Virus record (IMG/VR): IMGVR_UViG_3300027822_000036
Coordinates: 1-24,300 of that record
Direction: 5' to 3' (one strand)
Length of the DNA: 24,300 nucleotides
Origin: a virus
The notes below the pieces were generated by a model, which did not search any database, had not been told where the DNA came from, and was given only the letters and a program-made list of their open reading frames with translations. A program made the position numbers and the translations under genes. Numbering within the stretch: the stretch's first letter is position 1; each line of letters starts with the position of its first letter. This document shows, in pieces, positions 268-24,300 of this stretch.

Positions 268-1578
268 GTGGTACAACAGACATACACGCCGTGTGGTGCA
301 GCGAAAAAAATTTTCGACTGCAGGGACCCCGAAGTACTAATTGCTGGTCCTGCGGGCACTGGAAAATCATATGCGTGTTTGATGAAACTATACGCAAGTG
401 CTTTTGCGAACGCTGGTGCACGGTTTCTCATTGTAAGAAAAGTCCAGGCGTCCCTCTCATCAAGCGCATTGGTCACGTGGCGTAAACATGTGATACAGCC
501 AGCTGTGCAATGCGGATTACTGAACTACTATGGTGGTTCCGCAGTCGAGCCACCACAGTACCGGTTCTCGAACGGTTCGTCCGTCATGCTAGGTGGCATG
601 AACAATGCAGATAGAGTGCTTAGTACGGAGTTTGACATAATTTACGTGCAAGAGGCGACTGAACTTGCACTTGTTGACTGGGAGATATTGGTATCTCGAT
701 TGCGAAATGGAAAAATCTCGTATCAACAGATCATCGCTGATTCAAATCCCTCCAGTGAACATCACTGGATAAAACAGCGGTGCAACGAGGGGAAAACGAC
801 GCTTTTTCACTCGAAACACCAGGACAATCCTCTTTTCTGGGATTCTAAAAAAGAAGACTGGACAGTAAAGGGTGAGTCGTACCTATCTCATTTGCGTGCG
901 CTCACTGGGGTGCGCCGTGAGCGCTTGTATGAAGGTCGGTGGGTTTCTGAGGAGGGGACGATTTTTGTTGGGTTTCATGAGCGTGTACACGTTATTGAGC
1001 CATTCGAGATTCCCTCTGATTGGCTTCGCTATCTTACGATCGACTTTGGGTACACAAACCCATTTGTCTGTCAGTGGTGGGCGATTGACCCCGATGGCCG
1101 TGCATACATGTATAGGGAAATTTATCGTACACAACGTCTTGTGGAGGACCACGCAAAACAGATACAAGAGTACATTGATGAGGACGGGGTGTCGCCCGAG
1201 TCTGTCTTGGCCGATCACGATGCAGAGGGTCGAGCAACCCTGGAGAAATACCTGCGACGCAGCATAAAACCTGCAAAAAAAGATGTGCTTCGTGGTATAG
1301 AGGCAGTACAGTCAAGATTTCGCATACCAGAGGACAAAAAACCTCGTTTGTGCTTTTTCTCCGACAGTCTTGTAGAGCGTGACCTACGCCTACGAAACCG
1401 TGGAAAACCATGTTCAACCGTCGAAGAAATTGCAGGTTACGTGTGGTCAAATAGAAAAACAGAATCAGGTGTTGACCACCCGGTGAAAACGAACGACCAC
1501 GGCGTGGATTGCATTCGGTATATGATTGCTCACATTGATCTGCGAGTTACCCCGTCATTTTTGTCTGTTGAGGTCTAG
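268..1578 (+). CDS. terL: Terminase large subunit (DNA packaging ATPase/nuclease)
   Basis: This is the motor that pumps phage DNA into the prohead through the portal and cuts concatemers. Visible in the 436-residue product are a Walker A motif GPAGTGKS at residues 27-34 and a Walker B region FDIIYVQEA at 122-130 with catalytic Glu129. The residue before that Glu is Gln rather than Asp, a variant seen in phage terminases. The ATPase coupling segment is ADSNPSSEHHW near 157-167. The C-terminal RNase H-like nuclease has candidate metal ligands Asp259 (TIDFGYTNP), Asp316/Asp318 (ADHDAEGR) and Asp410/Asp414 (DHGVDCIRY). The start is GTG at 268; length and motif spacing fit a complete protein. It is followed by the portal gene after one small membrane gene. 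Confidence 0.96.
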   Translation: MVQQTYTPCGAAKKIFDCRDPEVLIAGPAGTGKSYACLMKLYASAFANAGARFLIVRKVQASLSSSALVTWRKHVIQPAVQCGLLNYYGGSAVEPPQYRFSNGSSVMLGGMNNADRVLSTEFDIIYVQEATELALVDWEILVSRLRNGKISYQQIIADSNPSSEHHWIKQRCNEGKTTLFHSKHQDNPLFWDSKKEDWTVKGESYLSHLRALTGVRRERLYEGRWVSEEGTIFVGFHERVHVIEPFEIPSDWLRYLTIDFGYTNPFVCQWWAIDPDGRAYMYREIYRTQRLVEDHAKQIQEYIDEDGVSPESVLADHDAEGRATLEKYLRRSIKPAKKDVLRGIEAVQSRFRIPEDKKPRLCFFSDSLVERDLRLRNRGKPCSTVEEIAGYVWSNRKTESGVDHPVKTNDHGVDCIRYMIAHIDLRVTPSFLSVEV

Positions 1579-10583: not shown

Positions 10584-10871
10584 ATGGGGAAAGTTTCTGG
10601 TCTTAATCTCAAGTATGGGTTCAATGATTATGGGTTCAACGATCTCGAATCTCTCGCAAAACCCGTATATGACGGCGATACGAGCATTTATCCCTCTTCA
10701 AGGCAAAAACTACAAAAGTTACCCGAGGATGAACGAATTGGAAGGTTGAGACAAAAACTACAAGAGTTATCCGAGGATGAACGAATTGGAAGGTTGAGTT
10801 TAGAGGAGGATCAGGAACTCTACAGAGAAATTTGTAGAGAAATTCACAAAGAAATGTACGGGGAGCAGTAA
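10584..10871 (+). CDS. Small charged helical protein with internal tandem repeats
   Basis: The product has 95 residues and no recognised family. The N-terminus holds a tandem YGFND repeat (YGFNDYGFND). The middle holds two consecutive 16-residue repeats ending in EDERIGRL. The C-terminus is strongly charged and helical (EEDQELYREICREIHKEMYGEQ). The repeats are nearly identical in DNA, so the expansion is recent. The gene begins 2 nt after its neighbour behind an AAGGA ribosome site and ends in a TAATG overlap with the second tail tube gene. It is therefore part of the tail operon and translationally coupled. A role as a linker or assembly factor is a guess from position and composition. Confidence 0.72.
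   Translation: MGKVSGLNLKYGFNDYGFNDLESLAKPVYDGDTSIYPSSRQKLQKLPEDERIGRLRQKLQELSEDERIGRLSLEEDQELYREICREIHKEMYGEQ
10614..10643 (+). repeat. 15-bp tandem duplication encoding YGFND twice
   Basis: Copies at 10614-10628 and 10629-10643 differ by one silent base (AAT versus AAC in the Asn codon). They keep the reading frame. Confidence 0.85.
10701..10796 (+). repeat. 48-bp tandem duplication encoding a 16-residue charged repeat
   Basis: Copies at 10701-10748 and 10749-10796 match at 45 of 48 positions. The differences change Lys to Glu and Pro to Ser and leave one Arg codon synonymous. The in-frame length suggests repeat number may vary between relatives. Confidence 0.9.
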
Positions 10872-18665: not shown

Positions 18666-20576
18666 ATGGTAATGCATACCACATTAGAAGATAGACGTGT
18701 GCGTTCATGGGAGACATTCCTTGGTTCGTCATTCGTCCGTGTACACGCTCCTGAGCAAAACACACGAGATTGGGAATCTTCTTGGGAGAACTTTTCCCGA
18801 ACGAACGACACTACTCCTATGTGGGGATTGGACTCAGAATTTACCGTACCAGAAACACAAGGAGCTTTCTGGTCACCTAATTTCAATCTAAGATTGGTCC
18901 AGATTGGGAGCAAATCAGACGCTTGGGTTTTTCGCATGGACGATCCATACCAGCGACACATAGCTACAACATTTTTCCAAGACACTCGTAATCAGTTTTG
19001 CTCTCACACGAATGCCGATGTGCATGCAATACAAATGGGTCTAGGCGTCGACATCAGTAAGCAAAACTGGAACACACATACACTCGCAAGGATGAATAGC
19101 CAGCGAAGTTTTCGCATTCCAAGTCCTATAACACCAGGGAAATACCTGGAAAAATTCGACTTGAAACACGTTGCGACCTGTTATGGCATGCCACAGCTCT
19201 CTCAAGCTGCGGATAATCTAAAATTACAGCTCTGTGATTTGGGCCATCGAGAAGGATGGGAGAAAAAAGGCACGAGAAACGCAGAGACGTGGGGTTGGAA
19301 CAACATCCCGCTGGATCACGAGGACTATCTGATATACGCAGGACTGGACGCCATTGCTGTCCGAGTAATCCTCGATCGGCTGTGTGCGGAGACCAGGGCG
19401 CCGAATGTATTGTTGAAAAATGATGCAAACAGATTTAACGGTGTAACTGCACGTATGCGGCACCGTGGTATGAAGTTGGATGTTCAAAAAGCTGAAGAAA
19501 CACATGATGAGTGCGAAAGGAAAATTGAGAAGCTGAATGGAGAGATACGAGAAATTACAGGAGGAATAGGACATACGCAGAACCAGGCACTAGGTGGATG
19601 GCTCCTTGGGCATGGGCTGGATACAACACAACACCCAACTACTGCGACAGGAAAAGTAAGTCTTGCGAAGAACGACCTACCGAAGTTAGCCAACCAAAAG
19701 CTGGATGCGACTGCGCAAGCGTTTCTAGAACCGTATCTTGAGACAAAGAAGCTGGTGAATGCTCTACGCACTACAAAGACGTACCTGGATCGTGTGGATG
19801 CAAGAGGAATTTTACACCCAACTTTTCACGTTGTTGGTGCGTCAACTGCACGTATGGCTGCTGCAGACCCGAATGTGATGAATGTAAACCCACGTTTGCG
19901 TTCTCTGTTTCTGCCGTACAACGAAAATCAAGTGCTTATTAGCGTTGATTTTTCTCAAGCAGAACTACGAGTCCTTGCAGGTCTCACGCAAGAACAACGA
20001 ATGGTAGATGTGTACCTGCGAGGAGGAGACCTGCACCAAGAGACAATGGACAACTTGCATTGTGATCGTAGGTTGGCGAAAATTGTCAACTTTATGGTCG
20101 CTTACGGCGGCGGAGCAAATGCGGTAAGTGAAAGTGCAGGTTGCACTTTTGACGAGGCAAAAGATCTCATTCAAAAATTTTGGCAAAGCTATCCCGCAGC
20201 GCTTGCGTTTCGTAATCATCTCTCTAAGTTAGATGATTACGTTGAGACATTCGTGGGTCGAAAAATACCCGTGTACCTCACTTCCGATGGGGTGCCTGCG
20301 ACGCACAAAAACCTTAATTATGCCATTCAATCGTCTGCTCGTGAATTGTTGGCGCAAGCAGTTCTTCGGATGGTAGAAAATGGAATAGACTGCCAAGTTT
20401 GGAATCTAATTCACGATGAGGTAGTCATTTGCGTTGATCGTGCAGATGCAAAAGATGCGACACGAGAATTAGAGGAGGCGATGCGGGGTACCGGATACTT
20501 TTTTGGGGTGCCGATCGTCACGGACACGACAGTCTACGTGGAGGAGGAAACAGGCATCTCCCGATGGGGCAAGTAA
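18666..20576 (+). CDS. DNA polymerase, family A, with 3'-5' exonuclease domain
   Basis: This is the replicative polymerase of the phage (636 residues). The N-terminal DEDD exonuclease has motif I Asp56/Glu58 (GLDSEF), motif II around HTNADVH (114-120), and motif III Tyr224/Asp228 (YAGLD). The polymerase domain has motif A with Asp428 (DFSQAELRVLAG), motif B Arg468/Lys472/Phe476/Tyr480 (RRLAKIVNFMVAYG), and motif C Asp584 (IHDEVV). All catalytic residues are present. There is no 5' nuclease domain, as is usual in phage enzymes. The start is ATG 18666; a second in-frame ATG lies two codons on, and AAAGGA sits upstream at rather wide spacing. It is preceded by a hairpin-rich gap and followed by the 42-bp palindrome, so it may be its own transcription unit. 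Confidence 0.96.
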   Translation: MVMHTTLEDRRVRSWETFLGSSFVRVHAPEQNTRDWESSWENFSRTNDTTPMWGLDSEFTVPETQGAFWSPNFNLRLVQIGSKSDAWVFRMDDPYQRHIATTFFQDTRNQFCSHTNADVHAIQMGLGVDISKQNWNTHTLARMNSQRSFRIPSPITPGKYLEKFDLKHVATCYGMPQLSQAADNLKLQLCDLGHREGWEKKGTRNAETWGWNNIPLDHEDYLIYAGLDAIAVRVILDRLCAETRAPNVLLKNDANRFNGVTARMRHRGMKLDVQKAEETHDECERKIEKLNGEIREITGGIGHTQNQALGGWLLGHGLDTTQHPTTATGKVSLAKNDLPKLANQKLDATAQAFLEPYLETKKLVNALRTTKTYLDRVDARGILHPTFHVVGASTARMAAADPNVMNVNPRLRSLFLPYNENQVLISVDFSQAELRVLAGLTQEQRMVDVYLRGGDLHQETMDNLHCDRRLAKIVNFMVAYGGGANAVSESAGCTFDEAKDLIQKFWQSYPAALAFRNHLSKLDDYVETFVGRKIPVYLTSDGVPATHKNLNYAIQSSARELLAQAVLRMVENGIDCQVWNLIHDEVVICVDRADAKDATRELEEAMRGTGYFFGVPIVTDTTVYVEEETGISRWGK

Positions 20577-20616: not shown

Positions 20617-20658
20617 ATAAAGGAAAGGGTATGGTGTACACCATACCCTTTCCTTTAT
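20617..20658. terminator. Perfect 42-bp palindrome, bidirectional terminator-like
   Basis: All 21 base pairs match around the GT|AC centre with no spacer. As RNA it forms a GC-containing core (GGGTATGGT/ACCATACCC) flanked by an A/G-rich left arm and a T-rich right arm (TTTCCTTTAT). This is the layout of an intrinsic terminator that works on both strands. It begins 40 nt after the polymerase stop and ends 17 nt before the next ATG. A frame beginning at the ATG inside it (20631) was not used. Confidence 0.75.
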
Positions 20659-20675
20659 CTACAAAAGGACACAAA

Positions 20676-21020
20676 ATGCGATGGTACAAGGACATATCGG
20701 ACAAGCTAGATCAACTTCCTGCGGGATGGCTGCGAAGAAACACTTTTCTCGCCATGCTAGAAGCAGGAGCGTTTCTCTCCGGGGTTATTGGTGTCTACCG
20801 AAGCGGTTACCAGGGGATTGACGCACTATTTTTCTTCTGCGTCACTCTTATGTATGTTGCCGTGCAAGCGGTCTCACGTGTCCGTCACGTGATCGACGTG
20901 CTCACGAACGATGCACTGTACGAGCAGTATGTTGGTCCTTCCGTGACACGAGCAGAGGCGAGGACACAAAAGTCGAAGGAGAAAGCGCTTCGTGGCCAGG
21001 TGAGCCATGATCGGGTTTGA
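20676..21020 (+). CDS. Small two-helix membrane protein
   Basis: I start this at ATG 20676, 6 nt after AAAGGA, giving 114 residues; a longer start would lie within the 42-bp palindrome. The N-terminus is amphipathic and charged (MRWYKDISDKLDQL). Two hydrophobic helices follow at about residues 23-41 (FLAMLEAGAFLSGVIGVY) and 49-68 (IDALFFFCVTLMYVAVQAV). The C-terminal 40 residues are charged (RAEARTQKSKEKALRG). No family is recognised. It overlaps the next membrane protein gene by 14 nt and heads a three-gene set ending in a membrane ATPase, so it may be a partner of that ATPase. Holin-like topology is an alternative reading. Confidence 0.75.
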   Translation: MRWYKDISDKLDQLPAGWLRRNTFLAMLEAGAFLSGVIGVYRSGYQGIDALFFFCVTLMYVAVQAVSRVRHVIDVLTNDALYEQYVGPSVTRAEARTQKSKEKALRGQVSHDRV

Positions 21021-21447
21021 GATTCTCTGGTGCGCTTTTCTTGGGGTTCTTATCTATTTGGAATTTTTCCGTAGGAAGAAACCCCAAGAAAGTAGCACGT
21101 ACACAGAAACTACTAATGTCGTCGACACTGATATCAGTGAGATACGTGTCGACGCAAGCAAACATACGGACACCAGTCGGCATGTCACTGTGGACAACAG
21201 TCAAAGTACAATTATGCCGAAGTATTTGTTCGTCCACGCAAAAGGTCCCGTGGAGTTGCGATTCGGCATTCCACGTGAGCCAGTGGGTGCGTACGATCCT
21301 GCAGTCATCGACACGGCAGTAGCGATGCTGATTGATGGTGCGACCCCAGCAGAGCTGGAACGAATTATACATACACTGCCTGAGCAGGTAGCACTCACTA
21401 CACTGGCTCGTTTGAGCTTGGAAGCAGACGAGAGGCACAGGGGATGA
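21007..21447 (+). CDS. Single-pass membrane protein with soluble C-terminal domain
   Basis: The product has 146 residues. One N-terminal hydrophobic helix (GFEILWCAFLGVLIYLEFF, about 3-21) is followed by a basic patch RRKK. That places the remainder in the cytoplasm by the positive-inside rule, although the short N-terminus leaves topology uncertain. A Ser/Thr/Asp-rich linker leads to a compact C-terminal domain (YLFVHAKGPVELRFGIPREP, DPAVIDTAVAMLIDGATPAELERIIHTLPEQVALTTLARL). No known family is recognised. AGGTGA precedes ATG 21007, which overlaps the upstream gene; the ATPase gene follows after 3 nt. The tight spacing suggests a common complex with the flanking membrane proteins. Confidence 0.75.
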   Translation: MIGFEILWCAFLGVLIYLEFFRRKKPQESSTYTETTNVVDTDISEIRVDASKHTDTSRHVTVDNSQSTIMPKYLFVHAKGPVELRFGIPREPVGAYDPAVIDTAVAMLIDGATPAELERIIHTLPEQVALTTLARLSLEADERHRG

Positions 21448-21450
21448 GTC

Positions 21451-24270
21451 ATGGCTCTACTCGACCTGAAAGAGATTTTTGAGAGCGCAGCAAATTTCCG
21501 TCTTTTGCGATCTTTGTCGAATGACGGAGATCGCATTGAGCGTGCGCCTGTGCCTAGTGTACCTATAAAGGTATGGTTGTATGTGCCTGTCTCAGTGTGG
21601 GTTCCCATTTTTCTGGCGATGCTCTCATCCGGGACGAGCATGCGCTGGTCAGTGACCTGGGCGTCGACAATTGCCTTTTTTGTTTACGGGCTGTTTCTTC
21701 TGCAAACGCTTTTGGCCGCCGGGCTAAACTCTCTTTTTGCCATGCTGTGGGTTTGTGGATTTTACGCACTGGTTTTTTTCATGATTGCATGGACATTGCA
21801 CAGAACTCTTTTTCTTGTATTTTTCTGGGGCATTGTCGGTACCGCTCTGGTTGTTCTTGCACTAGTCGTGTCTTATTCAGTGACGATACTAGCACGACTG
21901 CGGCGTGGCACGATCCTATCTACTCAGGATGTACTACCGTTTTGGTCATCCAAACCCAAAAAGTCGCAGACCGTAACTCTACAGCTTCTCCCGGAAAGCG
22001 ATTTTGACACTCTCCCCCTGGAAGCAGCAAGTAAAATCTTGGGTCTTGCCGTGGTGCGTGCTGGCGAAACGGACACTGTCGTCCGAGCGGTGACTCAAGT
22101 TAGAGGTGATGCTCTGTCTATCTACGTTCAGGTTCCTGAAAACATGGAAGAGGTTTTTGCCGCACAAATGCCAAAAGGCATACAAATTCGGCGAATACCA
22201 GAAAGAGTGCTCGCCGATTGGCCCCACAAAAACGCAAACGTGGGTGTTGCACGGGCAAGTTTTCATCCGCAACGCCGTAGCAATGCTCTCGTCGGAGCAT
22301 TGGAGTCCATCACCATACAGGACCCACACATTCAGATAGAAAAGGCAGCAAAGAATTTTACTGACACCGACGCTGCATATGTCGTTGTGGATGTCGGCCC
22401 GGTTGAACAGGGAGAGGCGGAGAAATATCGAAAAGCCGCTCGTGATGCGGGCGGGCAGCTTACAAATACAGACGCAATAGGAATATGCGATATAAGTATA
22501 GCCGCAGTAGCAGCAACAGAAGCACGAGCGCAGCAAATCGCCACAAACATTAGCGCCGCTCTACGGCTGGGACTGGATTCCGGACAAAATATACTCCAAG
22601 AGCGTATGCACAAAACTGGGACGCACGCTGCTCGGCGATTTGATACCAGCATGCGTGCGGCGAAAATCGATAAGCAGCGTGCGTGGATGATGGCAATCGG
22701 CCCCCTCACTCCTCTCTTTCTCCCTCCTATAAATCAGGTCACACTTACGGAGACTGCAGGCCAGGAGGCGATTGGGGAAAGTCTACTTCCTGCATGGGAC
22801 GGGAAAAATTCTCGATATGCTCTGCCTATTGGAGCAGTGGGCGGGGATATTAAAGCTGCAGATTTGCAGGATTTTGTCGCTTGGTTGCTCGTTGCTCCCT
22901 CTGGTGGAGGAAAAACAAGCGCACTTGTGACCGCTGTTGTTTCCTACCTCGTCGCTCAGCCAGATGCATCTGCAACAATTATCGTTCCTGATGCACAAAC
23001 GGCGAACATGCTCAGTTACTACCTCCAGGATAGAGAAGATCCGGATGCTCGCACGCATATGCAAAAACGCCTCTATGTTATCGACATGGACAATAAAGAA
23101 GATGGTGTACTACAGAAGGCGATGAACCCTCTGTTTGTGCCAAAAGGATCGAATCGTGGCCAGGTGGATAACATTGCGAGTGGTGCATTTAGTGCTATTT
23201 GTTCCGCCGGTGGATGGCAGACCGACAATGCCCCTAAAATCAGGAGAGTACTCAAAGTACTCATCACCTCACTGGTAGTGGCAAACAGCCGCTTGCCGGA
23301 AGACATCCAAACCACGGTATTCCAACTCGCCACTATGGTGCGAGAAGACCCAAAATCAATTGCATTCCAAGAGAAAATTGTCTCTCTTCTGCCGGAAAAC
23401 ATCGCAGGAGATTGGGAAAGGGTGCAGCGAAGTTCTGTTGAAGGGCCGCTTGAGATCGTTGACAGCGCAAAAGTGGACGACACGATGTACACCATGCTGG
23501 GGTCGTCAAAAACCCGATGGTCGCCACAAATGGACGTTGGGCACGGAAAAATCACACTCATTCAGCTTCGTACCGGCAAAGACCAGCATGTCGGTAACAT
23601 ATTTGGCTCATTTCTTGCAGCGTACTTGCGCCAATCAGTGTACAACCGGGCTGACATGGCGGACGCCAGAGAACACCCACCACATCTCATTATTATGGAC
23701 GAGGCACCAGCATTTATTGGGGCATTCCGAGACTCCATAAATCTCCTTTTGACCCAAGGTCGCAAAAGCAATATGCCACTGATTTTTGCAGCGCAGAATT
23801 TCGGGCAGCTTCCTTATGGCATAAAAGACGTTGTACTGGCGAATGCCAGTTTGCTTCAGGTTGCATTTAACACGCAAGATGACGCAGACGAATGCCGAAA
23901 GAAATTGCTTGTGCCCGATTGCCTACCTCTTACTGGTTTGAAATATCAGATGTGTGCAATTGCACGTTCACCACACCAAGAAAATCCGTTGCAACACAAC
24001 CTGCTGCAAGTTCTAGATCCGAAAGAAGAACTTGGAAAACTGGGAAAATTGCCATACCCGCAATTGCAAGATGGCGAGGGTGTGTCGTTTGAAACAGTTG
24101 CACAACACCAGAAAACTCTTGTGCAACGCATCATAAGTTGTGATGTCGATGCAATTGCAGATGACGGATCTCACAATTCAGCTGCCAGCATTGTCCACGA
24201 AGACGTAACGGAGCCAGAATTCACAGATGGTGTTCCGAAATCGACAAAGAAATTTTGGGATCTAGATTGA
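21451..24270 (+). CDS. Membrane-anchored VirD4/VirB4/HerA-like P-loop ATPase
   Basis: The product (939 residues) looks like a type IV secretion or conjugative coupling ATPase. Four hydrophobic segments lie near residues 40-59, 67-90, 92-114 and 119-148. A cytoplasmic alpha/beta region (about 165-450) precedes the motor domain. The motor has Walker A APSGGGKTS (482-490), Walker B HLIIMDEAPAF with Asp750/Glu751, and LLLTQGRKSNMPLIFAAQNFGQLP with the sensor Gln782 typical of the VirD4/FtsK/HerA clan. Such proteins form hexameric pumps that move DNA or protein through a membrane pore. The phage has a separate terminase, so packaging is unlikely to be its job. AGGGGATGA precedes ATG 21451. No relaxase or other transfer gene is visible here. 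Confidence 0.85.
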   Translation: MALLDLKEIFESAANFRLLRSLSNDGDRIERAPVPSVPIKVWLYVPVSVWVPIFLAMLSSGTSMRWSVTWASTIAFFVYGLFLLQTLLAAGLNSLFAMLWVCGFYALVFFMIAWTLHRTLFLVFFWGIVGTALVVLALVVSYSVTILARLRRGTILSTQDVLPFWSSKPKKSQTVTLQLLPESDFDTLPLEAASKILGLAVVRAGETDTVVRAVTQVRGDALSIYVQVPENMEEVFAAQMPKGIQIRRIPERVLADWPHKNANVGVARASFHPQRRSNALVGALESITIQDPHIQIEKAAKNFTDTDAAYVVVDVGPVEQGEAEKYRKAARDAGGQLTNTDAIGICDISIAAVAATEARAQQIATNISAALRLGLDSGQNILQERMHKTGTHAARRFDTSMRAAKIDKQRAWMMAIGPLTPLFLPPINQVTLTETAGQEAIGESLLPAWDGKNSRYALPIGAVGGDIKAADLQDFVAWLLVAPSGGGKTSALVTAVVSYLVAQPDASATIIVPDAQTANMLSYYLQDREDPDARTHMQKRLYVIDMDNKEDGVLQKAMNPLFVPKGSNRGQVDNIASGAFSAICSAGGWQTDNAPKIRRVLKVLITSLVVANSRLPEDIQTTVFQLATMVREDPKSIAFQEKIVSLLPENIAGDWERVQRSSVEGPLEIVDSAKVDDTMYTMLGSSKTRWSPQMDVGHGKITLIQLRTGKDQHVGNIFGSFLAAYLRQSVYNRADMADAREHPPHLIIMDEAPAFIGAFRDSINLLLTQGRKSNMPLIFAAQNFGQLPYGIKDVVLANASLLQVAFNTQDDADECRKKLLVPDCLPLTGLKYQMCAIARSPHQENPLQHNLLQVLDPKEELGKLGKLPYPQLQDGEGVSFETVAQHQKTLVQRIISCDVDAIADDGSHNSAASIVHEDVTEPEFTDGVPKSTKKFWDLD

Positions 24271-24300
24271 GATGTGCAACCTGCAACCGCAATTTGCAAT
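24267..24300 (+). CDS. Start of a further gene (partial, possible CxxC protein)
   Basis: A TTG at 24267 overlaps the ATPase stop (TTGA) with GGGA 6 nt upstream, and the frame reads MRCATCNRNLQ to the window end. The C-x-x-C knuckle would suit a small zinc-binding protein. ATG 24272 in another frame (MCNLQPQFA) is the alternative. Too little is present to decide. Confidence 0.3.
   Translation, partial: MRCATCNRNLQ

Follow-up and report, generated by a model that had tools for sequence, protein, structure and literature searches.

The MOBC relaxases are represented in Pfam by the family PF13814 (Replic_Relax) (PMC5357655). These relaxases have been reported to possess a restriction-endonuclease-like active site, and TraX, their prototype, to bind direct repeats in its oriT (PMC12857230). 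The plasmid CloDF13 encodes a relaxase of this type, MobC, which belongs to MOBC1 (PMC12857230), and a membrane coupling protein with three helices in a membrane domain of approximately 150 aa, and it needs the channel of a co-resident plasmid for its transfer (PMC7431656). This precedent shows that a MOBC relaxase and a membrane coupling protein can be all the transfer machinery that a mobilizable element carries. In Streptomyces plasmids, the translocase TraB recognises short repeats of 8 bp (PMC12857230).

In phages, pairs formed by a translocase and a Replic_Relax protein have been annotated for years as oddities, as in phages Pony, Andromeda and Bolokhovo. A Replic_Relax gene was found here in 57 Bacillus, Geobacillus and Staphylococcus phage records, with an FtsK-type translocase gene alongside in the records inspected. 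The roles suggested for this pair include DNA injection (PMC3853050), prophage induction (PMC9476937) and plasmid-type replication and segregation (PMC9658697), and no test of any of them was found in the literature. In addition, of two B. subtilis phages that are 96% identical, one carries the FtsK and Replic_Relax cassette and the other lacks it (PMC9476937), so that the cassette is accessory in these phages. In the Bolokhovo record (MT514532.1, 43525-43986), the annotated Replic_Relax gene (43807-44082) is start-truncated, and the domain match begins at 43525 in an open frame of 236 aa.

The DNA analysed in the present study, referred to as the window, corresponds to an entire IMG/VR record (IMGVR_UViG_3300027822_000036; 24,300 bp), in which an earlier note, made from the sequence, had described a conjugation-type membrane ATPase encoded beside a tailed-phage polymerase, in an element already provided with a terminase. 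Both the terminase large subunit and the polymerase were confirmed by Pfam and PHROGs (Table 1), and the former identifies the element as a tailed phage, whose window also encodes, according to the same two resources, a portal, a ClpP-like head protease and an HK97 capsid protein. The search for the same gene in related phages, which had been proposed as a check, returned an orthologue in the only close relative of the virus present in IMG/VR, a record of 55.3 kb (3300027822_000016; 55,299 bp; hereafter G001); scans of IMG/VR with two alignments and with the relaxase described below revealed nothing beyond this relative. G001 has a terminal overlap of 256 bp, in which three positions are mismatched, and is therefore in effect complete and circularly permuted, with approximately 55.0 kb. 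When the ATPase profile and PF13814 were searched in 30 phage contigs with related terminases, many of which are fragments, no match was obtained.

Table 1. Coordinates of the features discussed. L002 and L005 are regions of G001, given in reverse orientation; features of G001 lie outside the window.
Feature	Sequence	Coordinates	Strand	Remarks
Terminase large subunit	Window	268..1578	+	Pfam and PHROGs
Short tandem repeats (15 bp x2, 48 bp x2)	Window	10614-10643 and 10704-10798		Small gene between two tail-region genes
Family A DNA polymerase (PolA)	Window	18666..20576	+	PF00476 E=2.3e-46; phrog_17 E=6e-80; flanks the module
Small membrane protein, 129 aa	Window	20631..21020	+	Overlaps the beginning of the following gene; likely same operon
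Small protein, 146 aa, one N-terminal membrane segment	Window	21007..21447	+	Ends 3 bp upstream of the ATPase gene; likely same operon
Membrane-anchored, coupling-protein-like DNA-translocase ATPase, 939 aa	Window	21451..24270	+	Open reading frame without internal stop
Remainder after the ATPase stop, 30 bp	Window	24271..24300	+	Contig stops here
Orthologue of the 129-aa gene	G001	L002:5169-5591		80% identity; dN/dS 0.14
Orthologue of the 146-aa gene	G001	L002:5578-6042		63% identity; dN/dS 0.21
Orthologue of the ATPase gene	G001	L002:6046-8901		
12-bp-period coding repeat	G001	L002:8743-8795		DEIA, ATPase C-terminus
Array of 12-13 bp direct repeats, ~557 bp	G001	L002:8898-9454		Between the ATPase and Replic_Relax genes; consensus GTGAAATTGCTC, ~45 copies
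Replic_Relax / MOBC-type relaxase	G001	L002:9584-10621		Next gene after the ATPase; PF13814 E=3.6e-11
12-bp-period coding repeat	G001	L002:10538-10614		GNRV, relaxase C-terminus
Membrane protein, 350 aa	G001	L002:10717-11769		After the relaxase; ~4 membrane segments; possible C-terminal helix-turn-helix
12-bp-period coding repeat	G001	L002:11331-11485		EIA, 350-aa membrane protein
Four tandem similar genes, 187-205 aa	G001	L005:7577-10344 (G001rc 24956-27723)		One scanned, no known family

The window and G001 share 80% identity in the ATPase and 91% in the terminase, and the order polA, two small membrane genes and ATPase is common to both. The dN/dS value of the ATPase gene was 0.13, compared with 0.04-0.10 for the structural genes, from which the gene is judged to be under purifying selection, and its GC3 (0.46) falls among those of the phage genes (0.41-0.55). 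Thus, the possibility raised in the earlier note that the ATPase region had been joined to the phage genes by a chimeric assembly was excluded, since a second virus holds the gene at this level of identity and constraint and in the same gene order. With regard to the host, the closest cultured terminases are those of Thermobifida phage P1312 (51%) and of Streptomyces phages (39-45%), the nearest ATPases and relaxases belong to Streptomyces plasmids, and G001 has an r1t-type holin, a holin of Gram-positive phage type; on these grounds the host is likely to be an actinobacterium. Among genomes, Planctomycetota were also found to hold relatives of the terminase, and no host record for the phage was found.

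The ATPase is composed of membrane segments (residues ~37-140), a middle domain (~170-440) and a motor (~450-830). All the motifs reported earlier were found where they had been placed, and the four N-terminal membrane segments were confirmed: the Walker A sequence APSGGGKTS occupies residues 482-490, the stretch LIIMDE supplies D750/E751 of Walker B, Q782 is present, and hydropathy locates the membrane segments at about 37-55, 74-92, 95-113 and 122-140. In fact, G485, G487, K488, D750, E751 and Q782 are invariant in 10 homologues. AlphaFold models of the ATPase (with two sequences) and of the relaxase (alone) were of very low confidence, with mean pLDDT of 35 and 37, respectively; the helices of the former match the hydropathy segments.

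When the ATPase was searched alone against Pfam, NCBIfam, PDB and PHROG, no significant or informative family was retrieved, and thus the initial label of "VirD4/VirB4/HerA-type" rested on motifs until homologues were added. Against plasmids, tblastn returned only ATPases of Streptomyces and Kitasatospora and one DUF87 protein of Bacillus, the best match (E=3e-8) covering residues 372-802. Additionally, an HMM built from eight plasmid ATPases, with no phage proteins, recovered the window ATPase at E=1.2e-25 over residues 331-813, and composition-shuffled versions of the ATPase did not match the homologue HMM. The identity between the phage and plasmid proteins is approximately 21%. In the motor-domain tree, VirB4 proteins formed a separate 100/100 clade, and the phage pair was found opposite to it, with the coupling-protein-like ATPases, on a long branch whose exact placement is tentative. 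These comparisons indicate that the nearest relatives of the ATPase are putative coupling-protein ATPases of Streptomyces and Kitasatospora conjugative plasmids. The conjugation-type assignment of the earlier note is therefore upheld by homology over residues 331-813. A VirB4 identity was rejected given that the HMM of VirB4 proteins from the same plasmids did not match, that these proteins form the clade mentioned above and that the NCBIfam VirB4 model reached just E=0.028; an FtsK/SpoIIIE identity was rejected as the Pfam search did not return FtsK_SpoIIIE at E<=0.1; and a soluble defence HerA was rejected owing to the lack of a DUF87 match in Pfam and to the four membrane segments, which are unlike such proteins.

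The curated coupling-protein (T4CP) families T4SS-DNA_transf, TrwB_AAD_bind and TraG-D_C gave no significant match either, with T4SS-DNA_transf reaching E=0.12, below the cut-off, for the orthologue. Considering that the homology is instead to a plasmid ATPase in coupling-protein position, the protein was named coupling-protein-like and not a VirD4 member. Among the features that characterise a T4CP, the N-terminal membrane domain is present, as is the RecA-like motor with both Walker motifs (A and B) and its conserved Gln, and linkage to a relaxase is found in G001 and in the plasmids, at a position before which the window ends.

In seven Streptomyces plasmids inspected, a replication-relaxation gene comes immediately after that of the ATPase, and in several of them this pair lies within runs of conjugation genes (VirB4, VirB6-like, NlpC/P60, TcpC). 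The complete order tcpC-virB4-virB6-nlpC-ATPase-Replic_Relax was verified in an actinobacterial genome (G183), and the pair recurs, more distantly, in further actinobacteria and in some Chloroflexota genomes. Since VirB4 is separately present in these loci, it is inferred from gene content that the ATPase holds the coupling-protein position. The two small genes upstream of the phage ATPase showed no detectable homology to the small genes that precede the plasmid ATPases. It was also observed that PLSDB types NZ_CP108475.1, NZ_CP109189.1, NZ_CP109414.1 and others as "non-mobilizable" despite their type IV transfer genes or Replic_Relax gene, so that MOB-suite is apparently blind to this relaxase family in large Streptomyces plasmids.

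The earlier note had pointed to the genes beyond position 24300, where a relaxase or VirB4- and VirB6-like genes could lie. A relaxase-type gene is indeed the next one in G001, VirB4 and VirB6-like genes were not detected there, and the downstream region of the window itself lies off the contig. The relaxase of G001 reached 44.0 bits with PF13814, for which the curated cut-off is 25.3, and E=8e-31 with a plasmid-only HMM, its nearest relatives being relaxases of Streptomyces plasmids. Residues D171, E192, D194, K206 and Y210 were kept in 16/16 proteins compared, and the invariance and fold class suggest that D171, E192, D194 and K206 could be PD-(D/E)XK-like catalytic residues. The gene that follows, encoding a membrane protein of 350 aa, has a layout suggestive of DUF2637/SpdB, and its comparison with this family was sub-threshold (E=0.19) in one search and gave no match in a second.

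The nuclease-like character of this active site bears on another explanation, in which the ATPase would form, with its PD-(D/E)XK-like partner, a HerA-nuclease pair for defence or counter-defence, cutting competing DNA. The PADLOC model mad8, which is HerA-like, matches the ATPase weakly (E=1.4e-7); however, this match is generic, as the same model also covers plasmid transfer ATPases (E=1.7e-17 in locus L007 and E=1.7e-6 in locus L008). Considering also that the ATPase has four membrane segments, that the partner matches Replic_Relax and that the pair sits in conjugation operons elsewhere, such a function is highly improbable. Therefore, neither of the ATPase families that had been put forward as refuting matches, a simple FtsK or a defence HerA with a nuclease partner, is supported, despite the nuclease-like active site of the partner.

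In G001, the ATPase and relaxase genes are separated by a repeat array that is by far the strongest tandem array of the genome. Counted over the whole G001 genome, the motif GAAATYGC has 47 occurrences on the coding strand and four on the other, compared with 3.3 expected. The array is a candidate oriT or ori, or else a minisatellite. The latter, originating by slippage, could be proposed since repeats with a 12-bp period are also found inside three neighbouring coding regions, namely the C-termini of the ATPase and of the relaxase and the next gene, two of which share the array motif. The window contig stops at the point expected for the beginning of the array; the assembly may thus have broken at repeats, although this position proves nothing alone. 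A 21-mer repeat match in another contig was discarded, as the contig is GC-poor, the repeat in it is short and coding, and no module was found in the part examined.

The array is also relevant to a role in replication or segregation, which is nearly as likely as mobilization, both being short of probable. According to this explanation, the Replic_Relax protein would nick at the array to initiate replication of the rolling-circle type or late replication. The membrane ATPase would anchor or move DNA intracellularly, with no cell-to-cell transfer. In line with this, the relaxase matches phrog_9381, annotated as replication initiation by nicking (E=2.5e-8), the module has polA as a neighbour and, in the relative, an Hjc-like resolvase gene as well, and a long iteron-like array suits an origin. 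Moreover, the Replic_Relax genes of the 57 Firmicutes phage records, adjoining a translocase gene where inspected, suggest a role in phage life, and an intracellular role can be argued since some of these phages have no known plasmid phase. On the other hand, the phage already has PolA, and its relative a Prim-Pol/D5 protein, PolA and an SF2 helicase of its own; a four-helix membrane anchor of the coupling-protein type would be unneeded for replication, and the FtsK and Replic_Relax cassette is dispensable in the B. subtilis phages (PMC9476937).

The reading preferred here, although tentatively, is that the ATPase would serve as the coupling protein of a plasmid-type module for DNA mobilization, made of two parts and carried by a tailed phage, probably actinobacterial. 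A further step, which is possible but rather doubtful, is that the phage spreads by two routes, in virions and, in the form of naked DNA, through conjugation channels provided by host plasmids, with its own coupling protein and relaxase and with the 45-copy array as origin of transfer. In such a mechanism, the N-terminal winged-helix-like part of the relaxase would bind the repeat array as an oriT/clt-like site, its PD-(D/E)XK-like domain would nick the DNA there, and the membrane ATPase would receive and pump the nicked DNA. The episomal phage genome would then borrow the channel of a co-resident conjugative plasmid, in a CloDF13-like manner, or, alternatively, the DNA might pass between compartments in a filamentous host. 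A borrowed channel is proposed considering that the phage has no detectable one of its own: HMMs for TcpC, VirB4, VirB6-like, NlpC/P60, CpaF and small channel genes, most of which recovered their targets in control plasmid loci, detected none in G001 or in the window. Consequently, a self-transmissible conjugative element is not supported, there being no mating channel detectable in the complete relative, and the same result disfavours a self-contained transfer or secretion apparatus. The interpretation of the earlier note is nevertheless supported in part: the homologous plasmid ATPase and the relaxase gene next to the phage ATPase in G001 make a plasmid-like transfer module a serious reading.

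Several observations speak against mobilization. The array and the relaxase are seen in one relative alone, as the window ends shortly after the ATPase gene; the ATPase is placed on a long branch and is distant in sequence from the plasmid proteins; and the plasmid gene pairs touch or nearly touch, with no comparable repeat array found beside the plasmid ATPases. An episomal phase likewise draws no support from the gene content of G001, since no integrase, partition or plasmid-type Rep gene was recognised among the genes scanned, of which many small ones were matchless.

The absence of a channel, together with the resemblance of the pair to the coupling and relaxase parts of actinobacterial plasmids, would also fit interference, in which the phage proteins would act as strays that take up, or wrongly feed, the channel used for conjugation by co-resident plasmids and so block their transfer. 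A mismatched (chimeric) coupling protein was indeed shown to cut plasmid transfer about tenfold (PMC7431656). Nevertheless, neither the array nor an intact relaxase active site would be required for this purpose, and interference is improbable. An involvement in DNA entry, as suggested for the FtsK-type protein of phage Pony (PMC3853050), is more improbable still. In this case, once the tail has attached, the ATPase, which has both a membrane anchor and a DNA-motor domain, would draw the entering phage genome across the membrane, and its nuclease-fold partner would process the ends; however, such a role would require the protein to be present in the virion or to be made before entry is complete, and the gene sits with polA, outside the head and tail genes. 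To our knowledge, there is no precedent for a coupling protein in DNA entry.

If mobilization were true, an active virus would be found to cross the line that separates phages from mobilizable plasmids, and phage host range and gene flow would gain a second route. The present case ties the phage-borne pair to a conjugation lineage, with its membrane-anchored, coupling-protein-like motor in place of FtsK, its kept active-site residues and its prominent candidate DNA site, and the question of a phage-borne mobilization kit thereby becomes testable.

Compared with known systems, the Streptomyces and Kitasatospora plasmids (NZ_CP108475.1, NZ_CP109189.1 and pFRL4, NC_023284.1) share with the phage a homologous ATPase motor and preceding domain and an adjacent Replic_Relax gene. 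They differ in that most carry VirB4, VirB6-like and NlpC/P60 genes, accompanied in many cases by Tad-type pilus genes, and in that their ATPases have 0-1 N-terminal membrane segments, compared with four in the phage; no array of this kind was found beside them. CloDF13 MobB-MobC, likened here by description, resembles the phage module in pairing a MOBC relaxase with a membrane coupling protein while lacking its own channel, whereas it belongs to a small enterobacterial plasmid and not to a phage. In the TraB/clt system of Streptomyces plasmids, a translocase ATPase also has a repeat array as DNA site; nonetheless, TraB is FtsK-type and moves double-stranded DNA, and its repeats differ in sequence and length from those of G001. 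Finally, Andromedavirus, Pagevirus, Geobacillus NIIg9.7 and MVC_VPHSA1, among the Bacillus, Geobacillus and Staphylococcus phages, present a translocase gene with Replic_Relax directly after it, with the same D, ExD and K residues, and in view of these Firmicutes records the claim of the earlier note that such a pump is not normally found in tailed phages must be qualified. Their translocase, however, is FtsK-type, with ~390-430 aa, compared with the coupling-protein-like protein of 939 aa, and their Replic_Relax protein is short (~200-236 aa). Therefore, the FtsK and Replic_Relax pair of Firmicutes phages was already known, and what is new is its membrane coupling-protein version with a giant repeat array.
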